Positions 10,545-22,399 of a stretch of DNA of 38,826 nucleotides are shown here, piece by piece. A program made the position numbers and the translations under genes. This DNA comes from Candidatus Saccharimonadota bacterium (GTDB lineage: Bacteria > Patescibacteriota > Saccharimonadia > Saccharimonadales > Saccharimonadaceae): NCBI GenBank assembly GCA_017406405.1, contig JAFQYO010000012.1, positions 1-38,826 on the forward strand, given 5' to 3'. How positions within the stretch are numbered: position 1 is the stretch's first letter; the number at the start of each line of letters is the position of its first letter. Under the pieces are notes generated by a model. It had not been told where the DNA came from, made no database searches, and saw only the letters and a program-made list of their open reading frames with translations.

Positions 10545-11324
10545 CTATTCGTGGCGTGGTCCGGTGTATTCTTCCGAGCCAGATGTTGTGTTTTTACATA
10601 CGTTATCGTAATATAAGGAATAATTTTCGTAGTTTATTGGAGTTGATTTGAGCCATTCCAGGGCTTCTTCTCTGTATTGGTTTTCTAAAGCTTTGTCGTT
10701 GCAGGCGTTGGTGTAGATATTTATAATATATAAATCTTGAGAGAGAGTGAGCTGATACTTAATTTTGCCGTCTTCAGTGAAGGCTGTATAAGGAAGATAA
10801 AGTTCAGGGGAGGAGGTCGTGTTGTACATGCCGTAGCAAGTGGTTTCTGGGTATTTCATCTCGGAGATTGGAGGGCAATTTACGATGATACTATCGGGGA
10901 GAATTTCTTTTTTGCTCTTTGACCAGGCGAAGTCGACAGTGTAGGTCATTTTTAATGAATCTATATCGAGAAGGAAGTGGGTAGAAGTGATTCCATCTTC
11001 TTTGTTTTCCGTGAATGAATCTTTGCGAATTTCCGCATCGCGAACGAAAGAATCTTCGTCAGTTCCGACCGGGAGACTATCTTGAATTAAGGAATAGATT
11101 TGGGTGAGGAGGGTTTCTTCGTAAGATTCTGGGGCTGAAGAGAGATATCTATCGTAGTTTTTTATCGTGAGGGGTTGGTTTGATTTTTCGACAATATTAT
11201 TAATTGTAACTCCGATAATGATGAGAAAAATAAGGGCAATAATGCCGACGATGGCTTTTTTAGTGTTTTTTGGCATTAGTTTGAGGTTTGTAATGAAGTT
11301 TGAAAGCGGTGAATCTGGTTGCAT
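10545..11324 (-). CDS. Membrane-anchored extracytoplasmic protein, possible T4SS accessory
   Basis: The 259-residue protein has a short cytoplasmic N-terminus, one transmembrane helix (about 24-45, AIVGIIALIFLIIIGVTI) and an extracellular domain with four cysteines in the C-terminal half (NCPP, TTCYGMY, NACND, NVCKN) that could form two disulphides. No known family is recognised. It overlaps the upstream hydrolase gene by one base (TAATG), which implies coupled translation and a shared task, and it ends the six-gene T4SS strand. A role as an assembly or anchoring partner of the wall hydrolase or channel is inference from position only. Confidence 0.75.
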   Translation of the reverse strand: MQPDSPLSNFITNLKLMPKNTKKAIVGIIALIFLIIIGVTINNIVEKSNQPLTIKNYDRYLSSAPESYEETLLTQIYSLIQDSLPVGTDEDSFVRDAEIRKDSFTENKEDGITSTHFLLDIDSLKMTYTVDFAWSKSKKEILPDSIIVNCPPISEMKYPETTCYGMYNTTSSPELYLPYTAFTEDGKIKYQLTLSQDLYIINIYTNACNDKALENQYREEALEWLKSTPINYENYSLYYDNVCKNTTSGSEEYTGPRHE

Positions 11325-14300
11325 TAAAGCCCTTTCTTAGCATTTAAGATGCGTTGGACGGATTCGTTGAGCCGGGATTCGGGGATTTCTCCGGATTTTA
11401 CGGCATTTAGGATTGAGTTGTAGGCGGAGCTTGGGTTGTTTGGCATGAGAAGGAGGTCGGCGCCAGCTTTGAAGGCGGCGAGGGCGGGAGTTGAAGAAGC
11501 TTGGGTTGCGGCTCCCATGTTCAATGCGTCGGTGACAATTAGACCTTTATAACCGAGTTCTCCACGAAGATAATCGGTTAGATATTTTGAGGACATACTA
11601 GCTGGTCCGTTGCTGTCGGCGGTGGTAATATGGGCGGCCATGATCATTTTTGCTCTACTGTCGATGGCTGACTTGAACGGAATGATATCCTCGTTTTTTA
11701 GCTGAGACCAGGTCTTTGAAGTCGACGCTCCGCCAGTGTGGGTATCAGAAGCGGAAGAGCCGTGTCCGGGGAAATGTTTATAAACGGCTATAACGCCTTT
11801 AGACTCTAGTCCGCTTCCAAAAGCGGTAGAGAGCTTCGCGACAGTGTTTGGGTCGGAGCTATTAGCGAAGACGCGGTTAGCGAGAACACTGCTTCCGGCT
11901 TCGTATAAGGTGTCGGCAACGGGAGCGAAATCAACATTAAAACCGAGACCTTTCATACAATCACCAACGGTGCTTCCGGCGGTTTTAGCGGCATTGACGG
12001 AGTTGAGACTTGATGCGTTTCCGATGTCAGAGCAAAGACCTGCGTTAGCTAAGCGAGCGACGGTTCCCCCTTCTTCGTCAACCGCAATGAACATTTTTTC
12101 TTTGGCTTCGGACTGCATGCTGCCGATTTTTTGTTTTACGGAGTTTCTTCCTCCGGACAGATCTCCGCCTTCGTTCATGAAGATAACGCCGCCTGGGGTG
12201 GAACCAGTTGAATCTTTAAAGCTAGTAAATTCGTTTGCGTAGATAATAAAGAGTTGAGCGACTTTTTCTTCTAATGAGAGGGAGCTAATATCGACATTGT
12301 CGCTGCCAGAACAAGTATTAGAGAGTTCTTTTAGGAAACCGTTAGTGGAAGCATAAACCGGAGCATAAGTTCCGCCCTCGGAATACTCTTTTAAGCTGTA
12401 TTCGTGGGCTCCTGGCCATTGCCAACCTTTTCCATCCGTAGCGTAGCCTAGGGAACAAGAGGCTTCGCCGATGATGATTTTGTCGTTGGCTTCGTCGATT
12501 CCAAGGACAACACCGGTGTGGTTCGCCCAGCCGTTAGCCGAACCGGTTTCTGGACCCATACTGACGATAGAATAGACTTCGGGCTTGTTGCTTAAGTTAT
12601 TGAATCCGTATTCGGAGACGAGTTTGTTGACGGTTTGGGATCCTTGGGTGACTGGGAAGTTCGTAACGGAAGTATAACGATTTATAAACCAAGCTGAGAA
12701 GGCCGAACAGTTGTTGAGGGCGCCACCTATCCCGCTACCCTTGGCGCCAGTACAGCCAGAGTCGGTAATGGAAACTCCATCTAGCGTTACGGTTCCTGTG
12801 GTGCCTTTTGCGGCTTCATCGGCGTAAGTTTTCATGAAAGACTGGGCCTGTTCAAGAGTCATGCCGCCGCTAGAAAGACCACCAGAACAGAGTGAGGAAG
12901 ATTGGGTTTCGTTCGGGCATGGGTCGGAGGTGGAGGAAGAAGACTGATAAGAGTAAGTACCATTAGAGAAAGCTTCGTAGGCCTTTTTGGCATATTCGCT
13001 TCGCTTATCGGCGTCTTGCCAAGTGCGTTCTCCATATAGGGATCTTGCTAAACTGGCTACTCCTGGGTCGGTGAGGTTACTCGAACCTCCGTAGGCGATC
13101 TCGTCTGTAACTAAGAATAACTCTGCGTATGATTCGGGGGTTTTGTTAGTGACTTTATCGAGGTTTTTAGTAAAACTTTCAAAGACTGATTCTTGGAGCA
13201 TGAATTTTGTTTCTGCTTCAACAGCTTTGATGATTTCGTCTTGAGAGGCTCCAGAAGCTTTCATACTGCATCCGTCTTTCCATGATGAGCCGTTGGCGGA
13301 CATGAAACTTTTCATGTCGGTTGAGCGACTACCTCCAGTTTGAAAAATACCGAGATATCCTGCGGGACTACAAATGAATGGATCGATATCAAACGTTCCG
13401 CCGCCACTTTCTTGCATGAAGTTTCCGACAATTCCGGCGATTGCGGCAGGATTGTCAGAGACGCCAGAGATTCCAGCTTGAGCGATAGTGTTCCAGGCTA
13501 CACCGGCGTTGTTGTTGGTGCTGTTGGAGGTAGGGCTTAGAGACGGGGTTGAGGAGGTGTTTTCGGTGTTGGTGCTGCCGGCGGTGCCGCTTTCGGGGAG
13601 AGCGGCGTAGGCGGTATTTATCATTTGGACGAGTTCGGGGTCGCGTGCGCTTTCCGAAGGGCCGCCATCTGCGTTTCTATCAGTTCCCTTGTCGATGTGA
13701 ACGTGAGCAACGGAATTATCATTGCAAGGTCCAGCTCCGCTTGCTCCATCTCCCCAATTTATGTGTCCGATAACCTGGCCTGCAGAAACGTGGTCTCCGG
13801 CTTTAAGACTTAAATCTTCGTATGTGAGATGCATATAGGCAATAACGGTCCCGTCGATGTCGGATCTTATTCTGACATGGTTACAATTGGCGCCGTTTCT
13901 TGTGGTTTGGATGTCTCTTGTGATGGTTCCGTCGGTTATAGAAACGACAGTTTGATTTTTACAGTTTCCGCCCCAACATATATCGAAAGCGGCGTTCGCG
14001 TTGCCACTTTGGGCGCCGGCGCCATAATGACAACCAATAGGATGATTGCAAGGGATGGTAGAAATGGAGTTTTGTTGGGATTTTGAGGCGCCGGCTATCG
14101 GGAAGGCGATAGTGTGACCTTTGTAAGTCGCCGTGGTAACGCCACCGGCGATAGTGGCTGGGCCGGAGCTTCCGGGAAGGGCGTCATAAATAAGGTTGAT
14201 CCATTTTTGAGAGCCTGATTGAGTTAAATGAAGGTTGTCAGAATCGTAATCTTCGGAAGAAGCTACGCTAGCCCAGTCGGCAACGAAGATTTTGTCGTTA

Positions 14301-14938
14301 TGGGAGGACTGTGCGTTTTTTATTGCGTTGTTGACGCCGGAATAATCGCTGTTTCTGTTGTCTTTCGCGGTAACTAAGATGATTTTTGAGCCGGGAGCTA
14401 GACTGAGAAGGTCGTTAATATATCCGGAGACGGTAGCTTCGGATGAGCCGATATTGTTTGTGCCTAGGGCAAAAACAAGATAGGGACGAATCGAGTCTTT
14501 TATTCTTGTTGCGACTTCTATGCCGGAAGGGTTGCCACTGACTGTACCGCCGAAACTTTTTCCAACTTGGATGTAGCCGGAGGAGGTATCTACGTTTTCT
14601 TTCCCTCCGTAATCAAGCCCGTCTCCGAATTTTTGGGTGAGCTGGTTGTAATTAAAAGCGCGGACTGAATAAGAGTCGCCAATCCAGGTGATTTGGTCGC
14701 CAGAAGGTTTTGCGCTCGTCGAGACGGAGGAGATAAGAGAGGCGGTCGGGTCACATTCTGGGTCGTTTGTGAAGATAATGTTGTTTTGGGCGCGAAAACG
14801 TTTTTCTGCGGGAGTGAGGGCGGCGACAATCGAGGCGGCGTTTTCGGTCCCGCGAGAGGTAGCGTAAGAATTAACGGTGCATAAAAAAGGGATAAATAAC
14901 GCGGTAAGAGAAAGCAAAAAGTATTTTATGACCTTCAT
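11324..14938 (-). CDS. Five-domain secreted cell-wall hydrolase (SGNH + M23 + lysozyme-like + CHAP-like + GH3/NagZ)
   Basis: This 1204-residue exported protein (signal peptide about 1-27) stacks five catalytic-looking domains. Residues 83-255 are SGNH/GDSL-like (GDS at 87-89, GTNN at 159, DNLH with D234 and H237). Residues 295-420 are M23-like metallopeptidase text with a candidate H304/D319 pair and HVH at 412-414. Residues 480-660 resemble phage-tail lysozyme, with E510 in NFMQESGG. Residues 690-865 are CHAP-like (C744 in NNCSAF, H807 in NHTGVV). Residues 885-1204 are GH3 of the NagZ type (KHFPGHG at 1054-1060, DTH at 1065-1067, nucleophile candidate D1137 in VTDALNM). Low-complexity Ser/Thr linkers separate them. 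The gene lies among T4SS genes, where a wall-opening enzyme (VirB1 role) is expected. It could cut its own wall, a host's, or both. Domain calls are from motifs; GH3 is firmest. Confidence 0.88.
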   Translation of the reverse strand: MKVIKYFLLSLTALFIPFLCTVNSYATSRGTENAASIVAALTPAEKRFRAQNNIIFTNDPECDPTASLISSVSTSAKPSGDQITWIGDSYSVRAFNYNQLTQKFGDGLDYGGKENVDTSSGYIQVGKSFGGTVSGNPSGIEVATRIKDSIRPYLVFALGTNNIGSSEATVSGYINDLLSLAPGSKIILVTAKDNRNSDYSGVNNAIKNAQSSHNDKIFVADWASVASSEDYDSDNLHLTQSGSQKWINLIYDALPGSSGPATIAGGVTTATYKGHTIAFPIAGASKSQQNSISTIPCNHPIGCHYGAGAQSGNANAAFDICWGGNCKNQTVVSITDGTITRDIQTTRNGANCNHVRIRSDIDGTVIAYMHLTYEDLSLKAGDHVSAGQVIGHINWGDGASGAGPCNDNSVAHVHIDKGTDRNADGGPSESARDPELVQMINTAYAALPESGTAGSTNTENTSSTPSLSPTSNSTNNNAGVAWNTIAQAGISGVSDNPAAIAGIVGNFMQESGGGTFDIDPFICSPAGYLGIFQTGGSRSTDMKSFMSANGSSWKDGCSMKASGASQDEIIKAVEAETKFMLQESVFESFTKNLDKVTNKTPESYAELFLVTDEIAYGGSSNLTDPGVASLARSLYGERTWQDADKRSEYAKKAYEAFSNGTYSYQSSSSTSDPCPNETQSSSLCSGGLSSGGMTLEQAQSFMKTYADEAAKGTTGTVTLDGVSITDSGCTGAKGSGIGGALNNCSAFSAWFINRYTSVTNFPVTQGSQTVNKLVSEYGFNNLSNKPEVYSIVSMGPETGSANGWANHTGVVLGIDEANDKIIIGEASCSLGYATDGKGWQWPGAHEYSLKEYSEGGTYAPVYASTNGFLKELSNTCSGSDNVDISSLSLEEKVAQLFIIYANEFTSFKDSTGSTPGGVIFMNEGGDLSGGRNSVKQKIGSMQSEAKEKMFIAVDEEGGTVARLANAGLCSDIGNASSLNSVNAAKTAGSTVGDCMKGLGFNVDFAPVADTLYEAGSSVLANRVFANSSDPNTVAKLSTAFGSGLESKGVIAVYKHFPGHGSSASDTHTGGASTSKTWSQLKNEDIIPFKSAIDSRAKMIMAAHITTADSNGPASMSSKYLTDYLRGELGYKGLIVTDALNMGAATQASSTPALAAFKAGADLLLMPNNPSSAYNSILNAVKSGEIPESRLNESVQRILNAKKGL

Positions 14939-14946
14939 CTGGAGTT

Positions 14947-14975
14947 ATTATAAGCAATTTAAGGAATTTCGTCAA
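14947..14975 (-). promoter_or_regulatory. Near-consensus promoter of the wall-hydrolase gene
   Basis: On the minus strand TTGACG (14975-14970), a 17-nt spacer and TATAAT (14952-14947) stand 8 nt before the ATG at 14938, predicting an essentially leaderless message. The hydrolase and its downstream partner can thus be expressed separately from the T4SS genes upstream. Confidence 0.7.
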
Positions 14976-14984
14976 GGAAGGGGG

Positions 14985-16796
14985 TTATTTCTGAGCTTGG
15001 GTCGGGTTTGTGGTAATGAGGGATTCTTCGGTTTCTGAAGCGATTATTTGGAGATGGACGTGGTTTGTGCCGGCAAAGAAGAGACCTTGGCCGACCGGGA
15101 AGTTTGCGAGGCGTTTTTTCTCCTCTTCTGTCAACTTAAAGACGTCAGAAAGAACATCGACGGCAGAAGTGGATTGTTTTAAGAGGAGTTGCATAGAGGA
15201 GTTTGCGACGATGGCGCGGCCCATTTTTGTTCCCATGAAATCTCCGACGTCCTGAGTGATAGTAGTGAGGCCGAGATAGTATTTTCTGGCGCGTTTTGCA
15301 AGCGAGAAAAGGAAGTTTGCGGAATCTTCAAATTGCATAAGTTGCCAAGCCTCATCGACGATGAGGAGACGTCGTTTTTGTTCGGCGCGGACGACGTTCC
15401 AGACGTGATTAAGAACGATATACATGGCGACTGGGCGGAGCTCGTCTTCGAGGTCGCGGATATTAAAGACGACCATAGGGTTGTTGATGTCGACGTTGGA
15501 TTGTTGAGAGAAAATGCCGGCGAAGGTCCCGGTTGTGTATTTTTTAAGGCGCTGGGCAAGTTCGGGGCCGGAGCCTTCCATGTGGAGAAGCGTGTCGTAG
15601 AGGTTGATGATTGTTGGCGGAGGAGACTGGTGGGTTAATGGGTCAGAAGTTATGCCGGCGCGGGCGTAGGTGTCGATTAGGGCTTGGTCGAGGTCGGCTT
15701 CTTCGTTTGCGGTAAGACCGGGAGCACCAGTTTGGGAGCCGCCCAACATGAGACGGAAGAGGCCGTGTAAGGTAACGAGATTTGCGCGGAGTGCATCGTT
15801 TGCGTCTTCAGCATCGACGACTTTAGGGAGGTCGAAGGGGTTAATGCGGACGTCGGAATTTAGGGAGAGACGGATATAGGAACCGCCGACGGCGTCACAG
15901 AGTTTTTGGTATTCGTTTTCTGGGTCGATAATAATGATTTCTGAACCTAGCATCATTGAACGAAGAGCTTCGAGCTTTACGGTGAAGGATTTTCCGGCGC
16001 CGGATTTAGCAAAGACAACCATGTTGGCGTTTTCTAGAGAGAAACGGTCGAAAATGACAAGGCCGTTGTTGTGCATGTTGACGCCATAGAGAATTCCTTT
16101 TTCTTGAGTTAAATCGGCGGAGGTAAATGGGAAAGAAGTGGAAATTGCGCCGGTGTTCATGTTTCGGCGAATTTGGAGTTGGTCGGCGCATTGAGGGAGA
16201 CAAGATTGCATACCTTGTTCTTGTTGGGAAGTGGCGACTTTTGAGAAAACCATGAGTTGGCCGAAGATAGTCTCGACTTTTTGTTGGACGAATTTAAGTT
16301 CGTCTAGCGAGTCGGCCCAAAGAGTTACATAAAGCCCAAAGCGGAAGAATTTTTCTGCGCCGACTTGGAGTTGGTCGCGAAGTTCTTCGGCATCGGTGAT
16401 GGCGGCTTCGAGTTCTGGGTCGCGGACTTTCCCACGTTCTGCGTTTACGTTCATCGAAGCTTCGAGCTGAGTAACCTTTTTTCGGAGGTTTTTCATAACG
16501 ACTTGGGTATCGACGGGATATATATACATGGAAATATCGAGGACTTCGTCGATGTTAATGATTGGGGAAAGCCAGCCCGTAAAGAGAGTACGAGGGTAAC
16601 CATAAACATAGAGAGTGCGACCGTATTTTGTGCCGAGACGGAAATAGTCGGAATGGATTTCTATGCTGGAGGGGGAGATAAGGTCGCGAAGAGTGGTAAT
16701 TCCCTGTTCGAAGGCGCGTTGGATCGCCATATCTTCGTTCATTTGGGACTGGGCGGCGATTTGAGAAGCGGAAAGTTGTTGTTTCTTTCTAGGCAT
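14985..16796 (-). CDS. VirB4/TraC-type T4SS ATPase, C-terminal motor part
   Basis: VirB4 ATPases energise T4SS assembly and substrate transfer at the inner membrane. The 603-residue protein has an N-terminal region of about 250 residues with VirB4-like text, then a P-loop domain: Walker A AKSGAGKS (263-270), IIIIDPENEYQKLC, Walker B RLLIVDEAWQLM (476-487) and TITQDVGDFM, the glutamine-bearing motif typical of the VirB4/TraG class. The first part of a full-length VirB4 seems to be supplied by the upstream gene, which it overlaps by 8 bp. The class (VirB4 rather than VirD4) rests on context and the N-terminal extension. Confidence 0.9.
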   Translation of the reverse strand: MPRKKQQLSASQIAAQSQMNEDMAIQRAFEQGITTLRDLISPSSIEIHSDYFRLGTKYGRTLYVYGYPRTLFTGWLSPIINIDEVLDISMYIYPVDTQVVMKNLRKKVTQLEASMNVNAERGKVRDPELEAAITDAEELRDQLQVGAEKFFRFGLYVTLWADSLDELKFVQQKVETIFGQLMVFSKVATSQQEQGMQSCLPQCADQLQIRRNMNTGAISTSFPFTSADLTQEKGILYGVNMHNNGLVIFDRFSLENANMVVFAKSGAGKSFTVKLEALRSMMLGSEIIIIDPENEYQKLCDAVGGSYIRLSLNSDVRINPFDLPKVVDAEDANDALRANLVTLHGLFRLMLGGSQTGAPGLTANEEADLDQALIDTYARAGITSDPLTHQSPPPTIINLYDTLLHMEGSGPELAQRLKKYTTGTFAGIFSQQSNVDINNPMVVFNIRDLEDELRPVAMYIVLNHVWNVVRAEQKRRLLIVDEAWQLMQFEDSANFLFSLAKRARKYYLGLTTITQDVGDFMGTKMGRAIVANSSMQLLLKQSTSAVDVLSDVFKLTEEEKKRLANFPVGQGLFFAGTNHVHLQIIASETEESLITTNPTQAQK

Positions 16797-17610
16797 TTGG
16801 TTGTCCTTTCTTTACATAAGTTGTGGCGAGCTGAGTAAAGTCGACGAGCGGTTCACGAACGGCGGTATCGGGATTATTAAAGTCATAGTAGAGTTCGGCG
16901 AGCTGTTTTGTGTTTAGGCGGACGGAGTGGACGCCGATTTGATAAAGACCGGACATAACGGTATCGACGCGGTTGTTGATTTCTGAGGCGGCTTTGTCGT
17001 ATGTCGCGCGATCAATGCGAGTTATGGCTTGGGGCTTCGTTCTTTGGAGGGAGGCAAAAAGATTTTTTGTTTCGGTCAACATTTTTTCTTGTTCGGCGGA
17101 AGGATAATAAGGGATAACTATAAAGAAGGATTTGTCCATAATGTTTGCTTCTTGAGAGAGGACGTCGATGAAATTTATGTAGTCGTCCATGAGGATTCCG
17201 AGAAGCATGTTATCGTTGTTACGGCGAATTTCCGTTAAGCGGTTTATGTAGGGGCCAATATCGACGCGTTGGGAGCGGATAAGGATTTGGGTTGTGAAGT
17301 TTAGGGAGTTTAGGAAATTTTGGTAAGAGAATTCGACGCCTTCGCGTTCGGACGAAGACATGAGATCGAAATTTATTGACTGGCAGGCGACAACGGCGCG
17401 GAAGGAGCCATCTTTCATGATAACCATAGAATCGCGGAGTTCGGAAATCAGGAGGGTGGTTTGGGTCGAGAGAGGAGAGTCGGGGTTTACTTGGAGAGGA
17501 GCTTGTTGCATCGCGGGTTGGGGCGCGGGCTGAGAACCGCTCGAAATCGGAGCGGCGTTTGGTCCGGCGGGCTGGGCGGTTGGTATGTTTTGAGGGGTTT
17601 GGGGGTTCAT
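16789..17610 (-). CDS. TraC/VirB4 N-terminal-like protein (split VirB4 partner)
   Basis: The 273-residue protein has a Pro/Gln/Ala-rich disordered N-terminus (1-45) and then a folded part with ELRDSMVIMKDGSFRAVVACQSINFDLMSSSEREGV, SLNFTTQILIRSQRVD and SFFIVIPYYPS. This pattern (a strand pair around a short ligand loop, a 'bullet-proof' FxxFLNSL region, IRSxxxD) is what is found at the start of TraC/VirB4 proteins. There is no P-loop. It overlaps the downstream ATPase gene by 8 bp and has AGGAGA before its ATG. The natural reading is that VirB4 is made as two polypeptides that associate. A simple frameshift is unlikely, because the second gene has its own ATG and complete-looking start. Confidence 0.78.
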   Translation of the reverse strand: MNPQTPQNIPTAQPAGPNAAPISSGSQPAPQPAMQQAPLQVNPDSPLSTQTTLLISELRDSMVIMKDGSFRAVVACQSINFDLMSSSEREGVEFSYQNFLNSLNFTTQILIRSQRVDIGPYINRLTEIRRNNDNMLLGILMDDYINFIDVLSQEANIMDKSFFIVIPYYPSAEQEKMLTETKNLFASLQRTKPQAITRIDRATYDKAASEINNRVDTVMSGLYQIGVHSVRLNTKQLAELYYDFNNPDTAVREPLVDFTQLATTYVKKGQPNA

Positions 17611-17619
17611 AGCTTCTCC

Positions 17620-18534
17620 TTAATGTAAACTAATATATACTTCGTTATTGTTTGCGGCACGGGAAGACTCGCGGTTTGCTTGTTTAGCGAGCGAAGCAAC
17701 AGAAAGGTCGTCGCTTCCGGCGAGTTTTATGAGATTTGGGTTGACGGGGGGCGGAGCGAGAGGAACGGAGGGAGCGGCGAGGGTGGCTGGGTTTGTGGAG
17801 GAAGAAGGGGGTTGAGGGGATTTTGAAGAATCGGGGCTGGGAGAAGGAGTAGGGCGGTTAAGCGGGCGGGTACCTGATAAATTCCAGACTCCGGAGAAAT
17901 TTGAGGTTATATCTTCTATGGTCGGGTTGTTGGCTTTTATTGCGGCGCGCATTTCTTGGACGATTTCTTCATGCCGACGATTTGAATCTGAGGAGAGATT
18001 CTGGCCGACTTGAGAGGATTCGTAGGTTTCGTAGATATCGGTCGCGTTGTTTGCCTCGGCGAGAATTTCTCCGCGAACGGGAGAGTCGGAGGGGGTTGTC
18101 GAAGGGAGGTCGCCTTTTATGGAAAGACCTTCGGAATCGACGACGTTGGCAAGGAAGGAAAGACGACGGCCGGCTTCTTCTTCGGTGATGTCGCGGGTGA
18201 GAGGCTTTTCGACGATTTTCGGGGCGGTGATTGTTATGGTCGATTCACGCTGGCCGGGATTCCAGAAACGTTTGTTTGGAGTCGTATAAAAGCGAATTAG
18301 GGCGGCGATGTAGGTTTCCATAGGTTGGTCTTTCCGGAGAGGAAGAGCAAGAACTAGGAAGAATAGAGCCGGGATGACCGGAAAAATCGCAAGCAAAGGA
18401 AAAATTTGGGCGAGAGCCCAGGCGAGAGCAACGAGAGCGACGACAACAAGAAGATAGATAAATTGGCGAAAGCTAAACGGCCCGATAAGCTTGTCGTCGG
18501 CCTCAACATCTTGAGGTACCTTATATTGCGCCAT
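17620..18534 (-). CDS. PrgI-family T4SS membrane protein (VirB3-like)
   Basis: The N-terminal 120 residues match the PrgI family: MAQYKVPQDVEADDKLIGPFSFRQFIYLLV, two tightly spaced transmembrane helices (about 24-70), PLRKDQPMETYIAALIRFYTTPNKRFWNPG. PrgI proteins take the place of VirB3 in Gram-positive-type T4SS and usually precede VirB4, as here. The remaining 180 residues are a polar, Pro/Ser-rich cytoplasmic tail without a recognised domain. Nine nt separate it from the VirB4 N-terminal gene, which fits one operon. Confidence 0.88.
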   Translation of the reverse strand: MAQYKVPQDVEADDKLIGPFSFRQFIYLLVVVALVALAWALAQIFPLLAIFPVIPALFFLVLALPLRKDQPMETYIAALIRFYTTPNKRFWNPGQRESTITITAPKIVEKPLTRDITEEEAGRRLSFLANVVDSEGLSIKGDLPSTTPSDSPVRGEILAEANNATDIYETYESSQVGQNLSSDSNRRHEEIVQEMRAAIKANNPTIEDITSNFSGVWNLSGTRPLNRPTPSPSPDSSKSPQPPSSSTNPATLAAPSVPLAPPPVNPNLIKLAGSDDLSVASLAKQANRESSRAANNNEVYISLH

Positions 18535-18581
18535 ATATAATATATATTAGCATAAAAAGGAAAGTTTGGCGAGGATAAGAA

Positions 18582-21527
18582 TTAAACTTCCAAGTATTCG
18601 CGAACGGCGGTTTTCATTGCGGTTAGAGCAGATGGGTCGCCAGCGCGGAGGGCATTACATTGTTTTTCGGTAAAGAGTTTGAACATGTCTCGCGCAGCAT
18701 CTTCTGAACCATAGAAGTCGAGGAAGCGAGCCTTAAGAGCGTTAAAGGTGTCGGTTTTGAGAGCGATGAGGTCGTTTGCGGTGAGACCACGGAGATATTT
18801 TTCGGTCATTTCTTTATAGACATCTTTCAGGCGAGCGTCTTCGGCAGGGTTTTTAATAATCCATTTCCCTTCGGCGTTACAGGTCATTCCGGTAAGGAAG
18901 TTTAGGGTGTTCGTTATTTGCTCGGAGCCGGCAGCAAAGGTTGGGAGAGCAGAGATAATTTGGGGGAGCATTTCAGTCATGAGGCGGACACGAGCTTCGT
19001 CGGCGTCGGCCTGGCTTCCTCCGAAGTTTTCGGCGACAAGATAGCGGTTTATTGAGGACTTAAGGCCGCCATAGAAGGTACGGTCGATTCCTTTGACTCC
19101 AGTACCACGAAGGAGAGTTTCGACGAAGTATTTTGTATTTTCGCCTAAGGAGGTTTTTCCGGTCATATATTCTTTATAGGTTACGAAGTTTGAATTCCTT
19201 GAACCGTCGGTGTAGGCCCAGGTTTCGACGTTGATGTGTTTTCCGAGACGAGCAAGTTCGGGGTCGGCGTCTTTCATGCCGAGGAGGTTGAGAGCGAGGA
19301 CGTTTGCGAAATCGGTGCCAAGTTCGACGTAACCGTCGCGATCCATGTATTCTTGGAGGTGTTCGACGATTTTATCGTAGTCGCCACGCATCGCGAGAAT
19401 ATTTTGGGCGGCGCAGATGCCTTCGATGTCTTTTGCCTCAAGCATTTGTTCATAAGTTTTAAGGACTTCTTTTGTAACTTGTTTCGACATGTAAGTAGTA
19501 TAGGTCGAGGTGAGGGCTTTTCGTTCGGCTTCAAGGGCGTCGATAGCGTCGGCTTCGACGGATGCGAGAGCGGCGGCGCGTGAAGTTTCGGCTTCACGGA
19601 GGGCGTTGCCGGAAAGGCTTGAGCTAATAAATGCGGAAGCGCCAGCACCGCGGTTGATGAGGCGATTATAAGCGTCTTTGTCTATGAGTTCACCAGTAAC
19701 CGCATCTCGACGTGCGGCTTCGCGAAGTTGGCTGGCGTACCAGCGTTTGTCGGAAAGGTCATTACGGCGTTTTGCGCTAATTTGGGTCATGAGCTCGGTG
19801 AAGTTTTCGCCTTGGCGCTGAGCACGCGCGGCGAGTTCGGTAGAGGCTTTTATGTCGTGCGATTCGATATATGTGCTCATTGTCGACATAGAGTTGTCGA
19901 GACGAGTTTTTGAGGCAGAGTTGCGGAGGCCGATTTCACGATTTGTGAATTCGGATTTTAGTTCTTTTGTTTCGGTTACTTCTGTTGCGTAGAGGGTGCG
20001 GCCATTTTCATCGCGACCGATTGCGCGGCGGCGATAAATTGGGGCGCCATCGGCGGTATAACTGGTGATTTTCTTCCCTTCCATGCGGGCCATATAATCT
20101 TCAGCTAGGAGGTTCTGAGTTTGTGTTTCGTAAGATTTAAGAAGGGCTTGGCGACGGGCTTTGCCGCGGGCAAGTGCAGAACGCCAGTATCCGCCAGAGG
20201 CTAGATTGACTGGTTTTTGCATTTGTTTTGCGGTGTATTCGGCACGGCGGAGAGCACCTTGTTCGCGGAGAGCAGATTGGATTCCGCCGACTGGTTTTCG
20301 GGAAATGTTGTGGAGGGCGGCGTTGATTTGTCCCGGGAGGGTGCCGGACATTTTTAGGAGGTTCCAAGAGGCGAATAGAGGGACAACTTTAACGGCCATA
20401 CCAAGAACGAGGGTGATTGGGGAGTCGGCGGCGGCGATAATTACCCAGCCGACAAGAGAGCAGGCGCCGAAGAGGCCAGCGAATAGAGGGTAGAAGAAAA
20501 GCATAGAAATAATGGTTTTTCGCCATTTTTCGTACCAGGATTCGGTGTTCGGGAGGAGGAAACAAACAAAGGCGAGGGGGCTAATCATTATCAGGATATA
20601 GACGAGGGCTTGGCGGGCGGCGATAGTGACGAAAGCGATTAGAATCGAGGCGGCGGCGGCAATAAGCACAGCGAGTAAAGAGAAGAAGACGTAGCCGAGG
20701 CCGCCGGCGACGCCGATGGCGACGCCGGCGAGGACGGCGGAGCCGGTCAGAGCGCCGGCGAGAGCGGTATAGGAGATACCGCTCGAGGCGGTAGCGGCCT
20801 CGGAGATGATGCCTGTCGCCGTTACGGATTCTTCAATTCCGAGAAAAAGGCCACGTAAGGAGGCGCCGATAATGTTTGAGAGGTCAACAGCGAGAGCGCA
20901 GATGATATAGCTTAAGTTTATTAAGATTGCGGATATGATGATTTTTGGGAGAACACGCTTTATGCCATAGTTTGATATTCCGGCGCCGGTGATTTGGGAA
21001 TAAATTACTATAAGGAAGAAAATGACAAAGATGATGTTTGTGATGTCGCGGAAGATTGACCAGACTTGGTGGTAGGGGCTGCTATCGTCGAAAGAAATTG
21101 GCTTTATGATTAAGAATTGTTCAATGATGTTATAGAGCGAATCGGTGATTTTTGCGAGAAAACCGGTCGAAGGACAAACTAGCCAGCCGAGCGAGCCGGA
21201 TTCGTCGTAACATGTGCTGACCGAGGAAGAATCTGAACTGGAGTTGTCGAGAACGTCATATTCTCCCTCCGAGCTAGAGGAGCCGTTTGTTCTAGAAGAA
21301 TTGTCGACTATGTTTTCTGAGGCGGTTATTGAATTGTTTGCTGTTGAAGAATTGTCGAGAGAGGAATTTGTGGTTTCTGAGGAGTTGTTAAGAGAGGTGG
21401 ATTGGTTTGAGTTGTTTAGGGGTTCGGCAAAAACAGGGGTAGAAATGGTGTTAAGGCACAAAATAAGGCTCGCAAAAATTGAGCCCACAAGAAGAAAACA
21501 CTGGCGCAGTTTTTTAATATTTTTCAT
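18582..21527 (-). CDS. VirB6/TrbL-like polytopic T4SS channel protein with large cytoplasmic domain
   Basis: The 981-residue protein has a signal peptide (to about residue 34, PVFA), an Asn/Ser-rich exposed linker (about 35-105), then a polytopic core (about 130-400) with at least six hydrophobic segments, including IFRDITNIIFVIFFLIVIYSQ and a Gly/Ala-rich AGALTGSAVLAGVAIGVAGG stretch. Residues 400-981 are hydrophilic and helical, probably cytoplasmic. The RDxxN helix followed by a Gly/Ala-rich membrane domain fits VirB6/TrbL-type proteins, the inner-membrane pore component. It is the first gene of the operon and has a perfect consensus promoter. The long tail has no recognised domain and could contact VirB4 or select substrates. 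Confidence 0.83.
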   Translation of the reverse strand: MKNIKKLRQCFLLVGSIFASLILCLNTISTPVFAEPLNNSNQSTSLNNSSETTNSSLDNSSTANNSITASENIVDNSSRTNGSSSSEGEYDVLDNSSSDSSSVSTCYDESGSLGWLVCPSTGFLAKITDSLYNIIEQFLIIKPISFDDSSPYHQVWSIFRDITNIIFVIFFLIVIYSQITGAGISNYGIKRVLPKIIISAILINLSYIICALAVDLSNIIGASLRGLFLGIEESVTATGIISEAATASSGISYTALAGALTGSAVLAGVAIGVAGGLGYVFFSLLAVLIAAAASILIAFVTIAARQALVYILIMISPLAFVCFLLPNTESWYEKWRKTIISMLFFYPLFAGLFGACSLVGWVIIAAADSPITLVLGMAVKVVPLFASWNLLKMSGTLPGQINAALHNISRKPVGGIQSALREQGALRRAEYTAKQMQKPVNLASGGYWRSALARGKARRQALLKSYETQTQNLLAEDYMARMEGKKITSYTADGAPIYRRRAIGRDENGRTLYATEVTETKELKSEFTNREIGLRNSASKTRLDNSMSTMSTYIESHDIKASTELAARAQRQGENFTELMTQISAKRRNDLSDKRWYASQLREAARRDAVTGELIDKDAYNRLINRGAGASAFISSSLSGNALREAETSRAAALASVEADAIDALEAERKALTSTYTTYMSKQVTKEVLKTYEQMLEAKDIEGICAAQNILAMRGDYDKIVEHLQEYMDRDGYVELGTDFANVLALNLLGMKDADPELARLGKHINVETWAYTDGSRNSNFVTYKEYMTGKTSLGENTKYFVETLLRGTGVKGIDRTFYGGLKSSINRYLVAENFGGSQADADEARVRLMTEMLPQIISALPTFAAGSEQITNTLNFLTGMTCNAEGKWIIKNPAEDARLKDVYKEMTEKYLRGLTANDLIALKTDTFNALKARFLDFYGSEDAARDMFKLFTEKQCNALRAGDPSALTAMKTAVREYLEV

Positions 21528-21547: not shown

Positions 21548-21576
21548 ATTATAGCACACATAAGCGGAATTGTCAA
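21548..21576 (-). promoter_or_regulatory. Perfect consensus sigma-70 promoter of the T4SS operon
   Basis: Minus strand TTGACA (21576-21571), exactly 17 nt, then TATAAT (21553-21548), preceded by TG for an extended -10 (TGCTATAAT). The VirB6-like ATG lies 20 nt further on. It stands back to back with the pilin promoter on the other strand. Confidence 0.82.
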
Positions 21577-21660: not shown

Positions 21661-22110
21661 ATGAAAAAGAAATTTCTTGGATTTGTTTTAGCTTTAATGA
21701 TTGGGGTGGGAGCGTTGGCCCCGGTGCCGGCGTTTGCGGTAACGTGTGGCACGGCGAACGGGACGACTTCAAAATTGTTCGGATTGAAGAGCTGGTATTA
21801 TTATCTCGATTGTACGAACGGAGGGAAGGATGTTTCTTCGGAAAACTTTAAGGGGGATAAGCTCGCTACTTCGGTTTGGACGGTTGTTTTGACGGTTTTA
21901 AGCGATATGTTCTTTCTTGCTGGGTTTCTTGCGATTATTTTGATTGTTGTTTCGGGATTTAATTTTATTACTTCTGCGGGAGATCCGGGAAAGGCGACGC
22001 ATGCGAAGAGTATGTTGGTCGGGACGATAGTTGGGCTTTTAATCACGGTGTTGGCACAGGTGATTGTTAATACGGTTTTAGGGATGATGAATACAGGAGG
22101 AGGCGCTTAA
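21661..22110 (+). CDS. VirB2/TrbC-like T4SS pilin 1
   Basis: The 149-residue protein has a signal peptide (MKKKFLGFVLALMIGVGALAPVPAFA), a loop with two cysteines (TCGTANG, DCTNGG), and two hydrophobic helices flanking the family hallmark TSAGDPGKATHAKSMLVG. VirB2-type pilins are small two-helix membrane proteins that are extruded into the T4SS pilus. The same TSAG(D/N)-x-K-x-AK(Q/N) junction is shared by four other genes in this window. It starts the plus-strand pilin series, divergent from the channel operon; pilin 2 follows after one nucleotide. Confidence 0.85.
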   Translation: MKKKFLGFVLALMIGVGALAPVPAFAVTCGTANGTTSKLFGLKSWYYYLDCTNGGKDVSSENFKGDKLATSVWTVVLTVLSDMFFLAGFLAIILIVVSGFNFITSAGDPGKATHAKSMLVGTIVGLLITVLAQVIVNTVLGMMNTGGGA

Positions 22111-22111
22111 A

Positions 22112-22399
22112 ATGGAGAAATTAAGGGTTTTTGCAGATGAACTGAACGATGCGTTGAATAAGATTCCGCATAATAGCGCGGATACGTTTAAGAATAATGC
22201 GATTTCTTGGCTTTTCTGGGCGGTCGGAGTCGCGGCGGTGGTCGTGATAATTGTTTCGGCGATTAAAATGACGACGAGCGCGGGAGACCCCGGCGCGGTG
22301 CAGAAGGCGAAGCAGACGCTGATTTACGCCATAGTAGGACTTGTGGTCGCAGTCCTTGCGTATGTGATTGTGGAATTCGTGCTTGATAGTTTAGGATAA
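22112..22399 (+). CDS. VirB2/TrbC-like T4SS pilin 2 (no signal peptide)
   Basis: At 95 residues this is the shortest paralogue. It lacks a signal peptide: a short amphipathic N-terminus (MEKLRVFADELNDALNKIP) leads straight into the two hydrophobic helices around KMTTSAGDPGAVQKAKQTLIYAIVGL. The central segment is nearly identical to that of pilin 3, suggesting a recent duplication or gene conversion. It may act as a capping or minor subunit, which is inference from the missing leader. It lies 1 nt after pilin 1 and 4 nt before pilin 3. Confidence 0.83.
   Translation: MEKLRVFADELNDALNKIPHNSADTFKNNAISWLFWAVGVAAVVVIIVSAIKMTTSAGDPGAVQKAKQTLIYAIVGLVVAVLAYVIVEFVLDSLG

Follow-up and report, generated by a model that had tools for sequence, protein, structure and literature searches.

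A five-module exported wall enzyme in a variable slot beside virB4: a candidate wall-opener for the Saccharibacterial T4SS

The window analysed here, the whole 38,826-nucleotide stretch of a contig from a Candidatus Saccharimonadota genome, encodes between recF and virB4 of an oriC-proximal T4SS a 1204-residue protein in which five wall-active modules follow a Sec signal peptide. We favour, with modest confidence, the reading that this protein is a PrgK-like, VirB1-type wall-opener for the Saccharibacterial T4SS, exported by Sec, held by a companion protein and carrying modules tuned to the wall. Its modules, catalytic residues, signal peptide, locus, single copies, module exchange and companion linkage were all obtained by computation (features in Table 1). 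Multi-module slot enzymes, exported NagZ proteins and GH3 fusions are each normal in this lineage, and the protein stands at the extreme of a mix-and-match family whose composition shifts between species. What stands out is that the genome's copies of five module types are gathered in one gene and that a hypervariable slot lies beside a near-fixed motor; of the two, the slot pattern is more surprising than the five-module fusion.

Table 1. Features of the enzyme gene, its companion and the adjoining T4SS genes (positions in the window)
Feature	Positions	Strand	Details	Basis
Companion orf259	10545..11324	-	start overlaps hydrolase stop (TAATG)	sequence
Five-module exported wall enzyme P0001, whole ORF	11324..14938	-	1204 aa, ATG start; exact bounds from ORF translation	ORF + Pfam
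NagZ-type GH3	11336..12283	-	residues 886-1201; K1054-H1055, D1065-x-H1067, D1137	Pfam + tree
CHAP module	12383..12880	-	residues 687-852; C744, H807	profile + model
Phage_lysozyme2 / phi29 gp13-like module	12935..13525	-	residues 472-668; E510	Pfam + profile
M23 module	13595..14119	-	residues 274-448; H304, D319, H370, H412, H414	Pfam
SGNH module, OatA-C-like	14168..14734	-	residues 69-257; S89, N161, D234, H237	homologue profile
Leader behind signal peptide	14753..14815	-	residues 42-62, ..RFRAQNNIIFTNDPEC	divergent copy of modular-hydrolase tag
Sec signal peptide	14858..14938	-	residues 1-27, MKVIKYFLLSLTALFIPFLCTVNSYAT	inference from sequence
Promoter-like site	14947..14975	-	TTGACG-17-TATAAT, in 46-bp gap after virB4	motif
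VirB4-type ATPase, C-terminal part	14985..16796	-	TraG P-loop	PF19044, 1e-27
VirB4 N-terminal-like protein	16789..17610	-		weak TraC_F_IV match
PrgI/VirB3-like protein	17620..18534	-		PF12666, 6e-12
Candidate extended VirB6	18582..21527	-	981 aa, seven hydrophobic segments	hydropathy only
Two T4SS pilin genes	21661..22399	+	divergently transcribed	PF18895

Within the 38.8-kb contig the ORF shows no frameshift, internal stop or contig edge, so the five-module frame is neither a chance product nor an obvious artefact. An origin by assembly chimera or accidental read-through is very improbable: it would fit the absence of the identical five-module order from every other genome searched, but the frame is single and stop-free, GC content is even along it (0.47-0.50), the companion start is coupled to the enzyme stop, every module has genus-level relatives and the VirB4 neighbour is the same as in other genomes. 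Export, as proposed in the first-pass annotation, is borne out by the predicted Sec signal peptide. No lipobox was found in the signal peptide region, and by hydropathy this is the sole hydrophobic segment of the enzyme, which is therefore predicted to be soluble once exported. The leader behind it is related to a tag of the approximate form L..(F/Y)(S/A)QNNI.FYDP..C that is common to modular hydrolases regardless of their first module. A profile of this tag matched 63 hydrolases (e.g. at loci L091, L034, L036, L102 and L147) and none of 4107 other ORFs; the window's own copy matches it at an E value of 10 only.

The proposal of five real wall-active modules held up in per-segment profile searches, in which all five segments matched wall-enzyme families, and catalytic residues were found in each. 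Pfam searches with the single sequence placed M23 (residues 327-398, 4.5e-7), Phage_lysozyme2 (residues 477-657, 1.8e-7) and GH3 (residues 889-1199, 1.6e-60) above curated cut-offs and SGNH and CHAP below them, and the latter two were assigned through homologue profiles. The SGNH profile matched the OatA catalytic domains 5ug1, 5ufy and 6vjp at 1e-19 to 3e-17, the lysozyme-module profile matched phi29 gp13, and the CHAP profile matched PcsB at 1e-4, with 37 of 45 CHAP-module homologues matching PF05257. Structure models were made for the CHAP module and orf259; the former (pLDDT 86) returned CHAP domains as top Foldseek entries (prob 0.98), so that structure prediction agrees with the assignment, weakly (E only 0.03). 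The M23 module has its H/D/H zinc ligands and catalytic His, with a first His-Asp spacing that exceeds HxxxD, and the GH3 module carries the KHFPGHG motif and D-x-H dyad of the NagZ type. Across homologues of the five modules the catalytic residues are mostly near-invariant, the exceptions being D234 of SGNH (kept in 57 of 69), H304 of M23 (16 of 25, the remainder gapped or Y) and the GH3 D-x-H dyad, which is lineage-specific.

The order M23-lysozyme-CHAP is that of LytM-MUR-CHAP in PrgK of Enterococcus faecalis pCF10 (DELTA-class), a three-module protein whose muramidase domain likewise resembles phi29 gp13 (PMC11323569). Both proteins belong to T4SS loci of a monoderm-type system. This correspondence, together with catalytic residues in all five modules, argues for a wall-opener; the expectation of one or two domains as the norm for T4SS hydrolases fails on PrgK itself (PMC11323569) and on this lineage, in which three to six modules are common. 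The window enzyme adds SGNH and GH3 to the PrgK set. PrgK is membrane-anchored, as are all known Gram-positive VirB1 homologues (PMC12857230), whereas the window enzyme carries a cleavable signal without any anchor, and it is the companion that has the transmembrane segment. The muramidase is the sole active module of PrgK, its LytM and CHAP modules being regulatory (PMC11323569); the catalytic-looking modules here may therefore just bind or regulate, and motifs are not proof of activity. It is somewhat unlikely, in our judgement, that the protein is mostly non-catalytic, with one module (probably the lysozyme) cutting and the others binding peptidoglycan or regulating. The PrgK precedent (PMC11323569) and the lack of the NagZ D-x-H dyad in GH3s of other slot fusions point that way, but all five modules keep their catalytic residues, including a full GH3 dyad and intact M23 ligands, which are lost in the degenerate LytM of PrgK.

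Removal of O-acyl groups by the SGNH module, as the first-pass annotation had it, is not assured, since the closest match is the catalytic domain of OatA, a peptidoglycan O-acetyltransferase. The module has its Ser/Asn/Asp/His blocks in common with the C-terminal SGNH domains of OatA (S. pneumoniae 5ug1, S. aureus 6vjp), and its block II, V-G-K, resembles the V/I-G/S-R/V of OatA. In the S. pneumoniae domain, transferase activity is at least ten times faster than esterase activity (PMC5697884). OatA has an AT3 acyl-donor domain, in contrast to the window protein, and a search for AT3 acyltransferase (PF01757) gave no match in this protein or its genome. O-acetyl groups often hinder muramidases (PMC11323569), and esterase activity of the SGNH module would then be of help to the lysozyme module.

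Linkage to a T4SS, also claimed at first pass, is confirmed by the locus, in which the gene adjoins virB4. The plus-strand genes dnaA, dnaN and recF face a minus-strand run of companion, enzyme, VirB4-type ATPase, VirB4 N-terminal-like protein, PrgI and a 981-residue multi-TM protein, and two plus-strand pilin genes follow. A Pfam search gave no match for the 981-residue candidate VirB6. The locus corresponds to the T4SS that PMC12102498 describes near oriC in Saccharimonadia. A genome-contig scan with P0001 as query returned no relative and one with VirB4 did; among named records, the genomes nearest by VirB4 belong to Ca. Saccharibacteria, and many come from ruminant gut. The affiliation agrees with the epibiont lineage that had been supposed. 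The -10 of the enzyme's promoter-like site ends 8 nt ahead of the ATG. A TATAAT from a few to ~10 nt before the ATG is seen in many hydrolase genes (the window at 14939-14975, minus strand, and L117, L118, L146, L147, L102 and L091), which leaves no room for a Shine-Dalgarno sequence and makes near-leaderless mRNAs likely. The 981-residue T4SS gene is preceded by a 12/12 sigma-70 consensus (TTGACA-17-TATAAT with TG before it; 21548-21576, minus strand).

The recF-virB4 placement of the slot enzyme is conserved in many genomes, which favours a wall-opener, as do findings from S. epibionticum: its T4SS is essential (PMC10633639), and hydrolases just downstream of virB4 were reported essential for epibiotic growth in a Tn-seq study cited in PMC12102498. 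These hydrolases, and the Patescibacteria VirB1-like homologues with extra M23 or LysM domains described in PMC12102498, come from the same class of organism as the window enzyme, with the same locus near dnaA and wall-acting domains. As far as the text consulted goes, the accounts are without SGNH, GH3 or the extent of module exchange, and the five-module set was not found elsewhere.

Relatives were sought in overlapping sets of 174 same-genus, 199 same-family and 393 same-class genomes (774 genome searches in all). Each module has many relatives in these sets, and none of the three contained a second protein with the identical five-module order. The first-pass suggestion that the same architecture be sought in other genomes thus has a divided answer: the exact order is absent and multi-module relatives are abundant. 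In the fetched loci, 117 ORFs carry at least two modules in 64 distinct architectures, one ORF having six modules; the loci were retrieved with P0001 as query, so these counts are not population frequencies. The building blocks are SGNH, two lysozyme types, GH73, amidase-2-like, NlpC/P60-like, C39-like, VanY, M23, CHAP and GH3. The amidase-like module matched XlyA at 7e-5 and the C39-like module a papain-fold enzyme at 0.003; the NLPC modules match NlpC/P60 weakly and the second lysozyme type (LYSB) gave no PDB match, so that module counts using NLPC or LYSB are softer. Uniqueness of a five-module composition was rejected, as relatives carry five to six modules and just the exact order is unseen elsewhere.

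Judged by the nearest kin of its parts, the window enzyme is a mosaic, its modules being closest to those of differently composed proteins: SGNH to that of an SGNH-LYS-LYSB-NLPC protein (43%), M23 to that of an SGNH-M23-LYSB-CHAP protein (63%), the lysozyme to that of a LYS-GH73 protein (44%), CHAP to those of GH73-CHAP proteins (49%) and GH3 to stand-alone exported GH3s (41%). In many relatives modular hydrolases lie far from any T4SS gene (e.g. in L097 and L034); the family thus extends beyond the T4SS, which weighs against the wall-opener reading. Locus L097 (about 1-16.5 kb) holds tandem modular hydrolases of 1032, 1434 and 1239 residues, each beside companion genes and one with six modules.

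An unbiased view of the slot came from 80 loci picked on VirB4 similarity alone. VirB4 is 85-95% identical across them, and the first downstream enzyme takes at least 16 architectures, in which a module that cuts glycan is usually combined with a peptidase of papain-fold or M23 type, with or without SGNH. This typical composition is what a wall-opener would call for; against it, in 26 of the 80 loci a hydrolase could not be detected in the roughly 6 kb that follow. In comparison with the nearest relative (L033/L172; window 10545-21527), identity falls from the cytosolic to the surface-facing parts of the T4SS: 95% for VirB4, 90% for the VirB4 N-terminal-like protein, 65% for PrgI, 45% for CHAP, 33% for the companion and 27% for the VirB6-like protein. 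The slot enzyme of that relative is a GH73-CHAP protein, and SGNH, M23, lysozyme and GH3 are absent there.

Profile and family searches of the window's own genome (697,629 bases, 0.70 Mb, about 97% complete) detected one copy each of SGNH, M23, gp13-type lysozyme, CHAP, GH3 and the companion, all in this one gene pair; the single-copy claim covers these five module families and the companion. That the genome's one copy of every module is in this gene supports a wall-opener. The same fact would suit an autolysin or growth enzyme for wall remodelling and muropeptide salvage, placed near the T4SS as part of a highly expressed oriC region; a NagZ-type GH3 fits salvage, and the gene has a promoter-like site of its own. 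We regard such a housekeeping role as unlikely, because the single-copy argument reaches no further than five module families, and because for such an enzyme the variation would be unexpected that leaves VirB4 at 95% and CHAP at 45% identity to the relative with the GH73-CHAP slot enzyme.

In a maximum-likelihood tree the window GH3 is sister to stand-alone NagZ proteins (support 95/91), and the GH3s of other T4SS-slot fusions form a separate clade (100/96), which indicates that GH3 was recruited to slot enzymes at least twice; this recurrence is a further point for the wall-opener. A common origin of all fused GH3s in a single clade was rejected (p-AU 0.018). Like B. subtilis NagZ/YbbD and M. 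tuberculosis LpqI, the module is a single barrel with KHFPGHG and a D-x-H dyad, and NagZ is exported in Gram-positives as it is here; the window differs in fusing its GH3 C-terminally to four wall modules. An exported NagZ fusion had been called unexpected, a view at odds with the extracellular action of B. subtilis NagZ together with AmiE (PMC5061867), with the N-terminal export or membrane signals on stand-alone GH3s of relatives and with GH3 fusions that recur in this slot in further families within the class. In the slot GH3s of L061, L062, L156, L157, L159, L160 and L080, N-x-D replaces the NagZ dyad, which suggests altered chemistry or a binding role.

The companion orf259 is bitopic, with a short cytosolic N-terminus, one TM segment (about residues 24-42) and a ~215-residue ectodomain in which C150 and C163 are invariant. 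This topology would fit a VirB8-like protein, and the VirB8-like PrgL binds PrgK (PMC11323569); an NTF2-like ectodomain was not significantly matched, and comparison with OrfG gave Z 3.6, below significance. Foldseek and VIA searches with the model (pLDDT 88.9) found no significant match to a known tether or any named fold family, which counts against a held wall-opener. In its favour, an orf259-type companion follows 49 of 54 CHAP-containing versus 14 of 60 CHAP-lacking enzymes (Fisher 8e-14, a value inflated by related sequences), its gene overlaps the enzyme's stop codon, and L051 (6790-8229, minus strand) encodes a natural TM-orf259-orf259-CHAP fusion in one 479-residue ORF. These features suggest that orf259 may tether or regulate the enzyme.

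The companion could instead be an immunity protein, anchored in the membrane and shielding the producer of an antibacterial or anti-host effector, which would attack the wall of the host or of a rival, from its CHAP module. Several features would be in keeping with this: the enzyme is modular, changes fast and is followed by a small start-coupled gene; L097 has an array of enzyme-companion pairs; the companion tracks CHAP; and part of the ectodomain bears a weak likeness to cystatins (Z 5.2), which are inhibitors of enzymes with a papain fold, the class to which CHAP belongs. We nevertheless find an immunity pair improbable: a Z of 5.2 is below the shared-fold level, the L051 fusion suits a tether or regulator more than the antidote of a diffusible toxin, and the companion is missing for about half of the sampled multi-module enzymes.

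For the favoured wall-opener, we infer catalysis, order of action, tethering and target wall as follows. Sec would export the enzyme as a self-contained peptidoglycan-acting set in the VirB1/PrgK role. The SGNH module would act on MurNAc acyl groups, as esterase or transferase; M23 and CHAP, judging from their residues, would cut stem peptides or cross-bridges, and the gp13-type module, on the same grounds, would cut the glycan strand as a muramidase. GH3 would then take GlcNAc off the non-reducing ends made by the muramidase, comparable to extracellular NagZ with AmiE (PMC5061867). The translationally coupled orf259 would hold the enzyme at the secretion machine or regulate it nearby, and recombination would tune the module set to the wall that needs opening.

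Mix-and-match catalytic modules are also a property of phage endolysins and tail lysins, and the gp13-type lysozyme is phage-like; unlike those lysins, the window enzyme is chromosomal, has a Sec signal, is T4SS-linked and is paired with a membrane companion. A broader idea, which we offer tentatively and as possible rather than probable, is that the slot after virB4 is a host-range diversity locus, in which module swaps and fast-diverging companion and VirB6-like parts would fit an otherwise conserved T4SS to particular host walls, comparable to the exchange of lysins among phages, with orf259 as the missing anchor of a VirB1 split into two genes. The enzyme gene, which lies beside the T4SS, provides one defined, testable candidate for the breach of the host wall by Saccharibacteria; in the single strain for which this has been tested, the T4SS is essential. 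That a motor kept nearly constant (VirB4 85-95%) stands next to a wall enzyme in continual change suggests a possible site for the encoding of host specificity, and orf259 can be named as a candidate for the anchor or regulator that seems to be missing from these systems.
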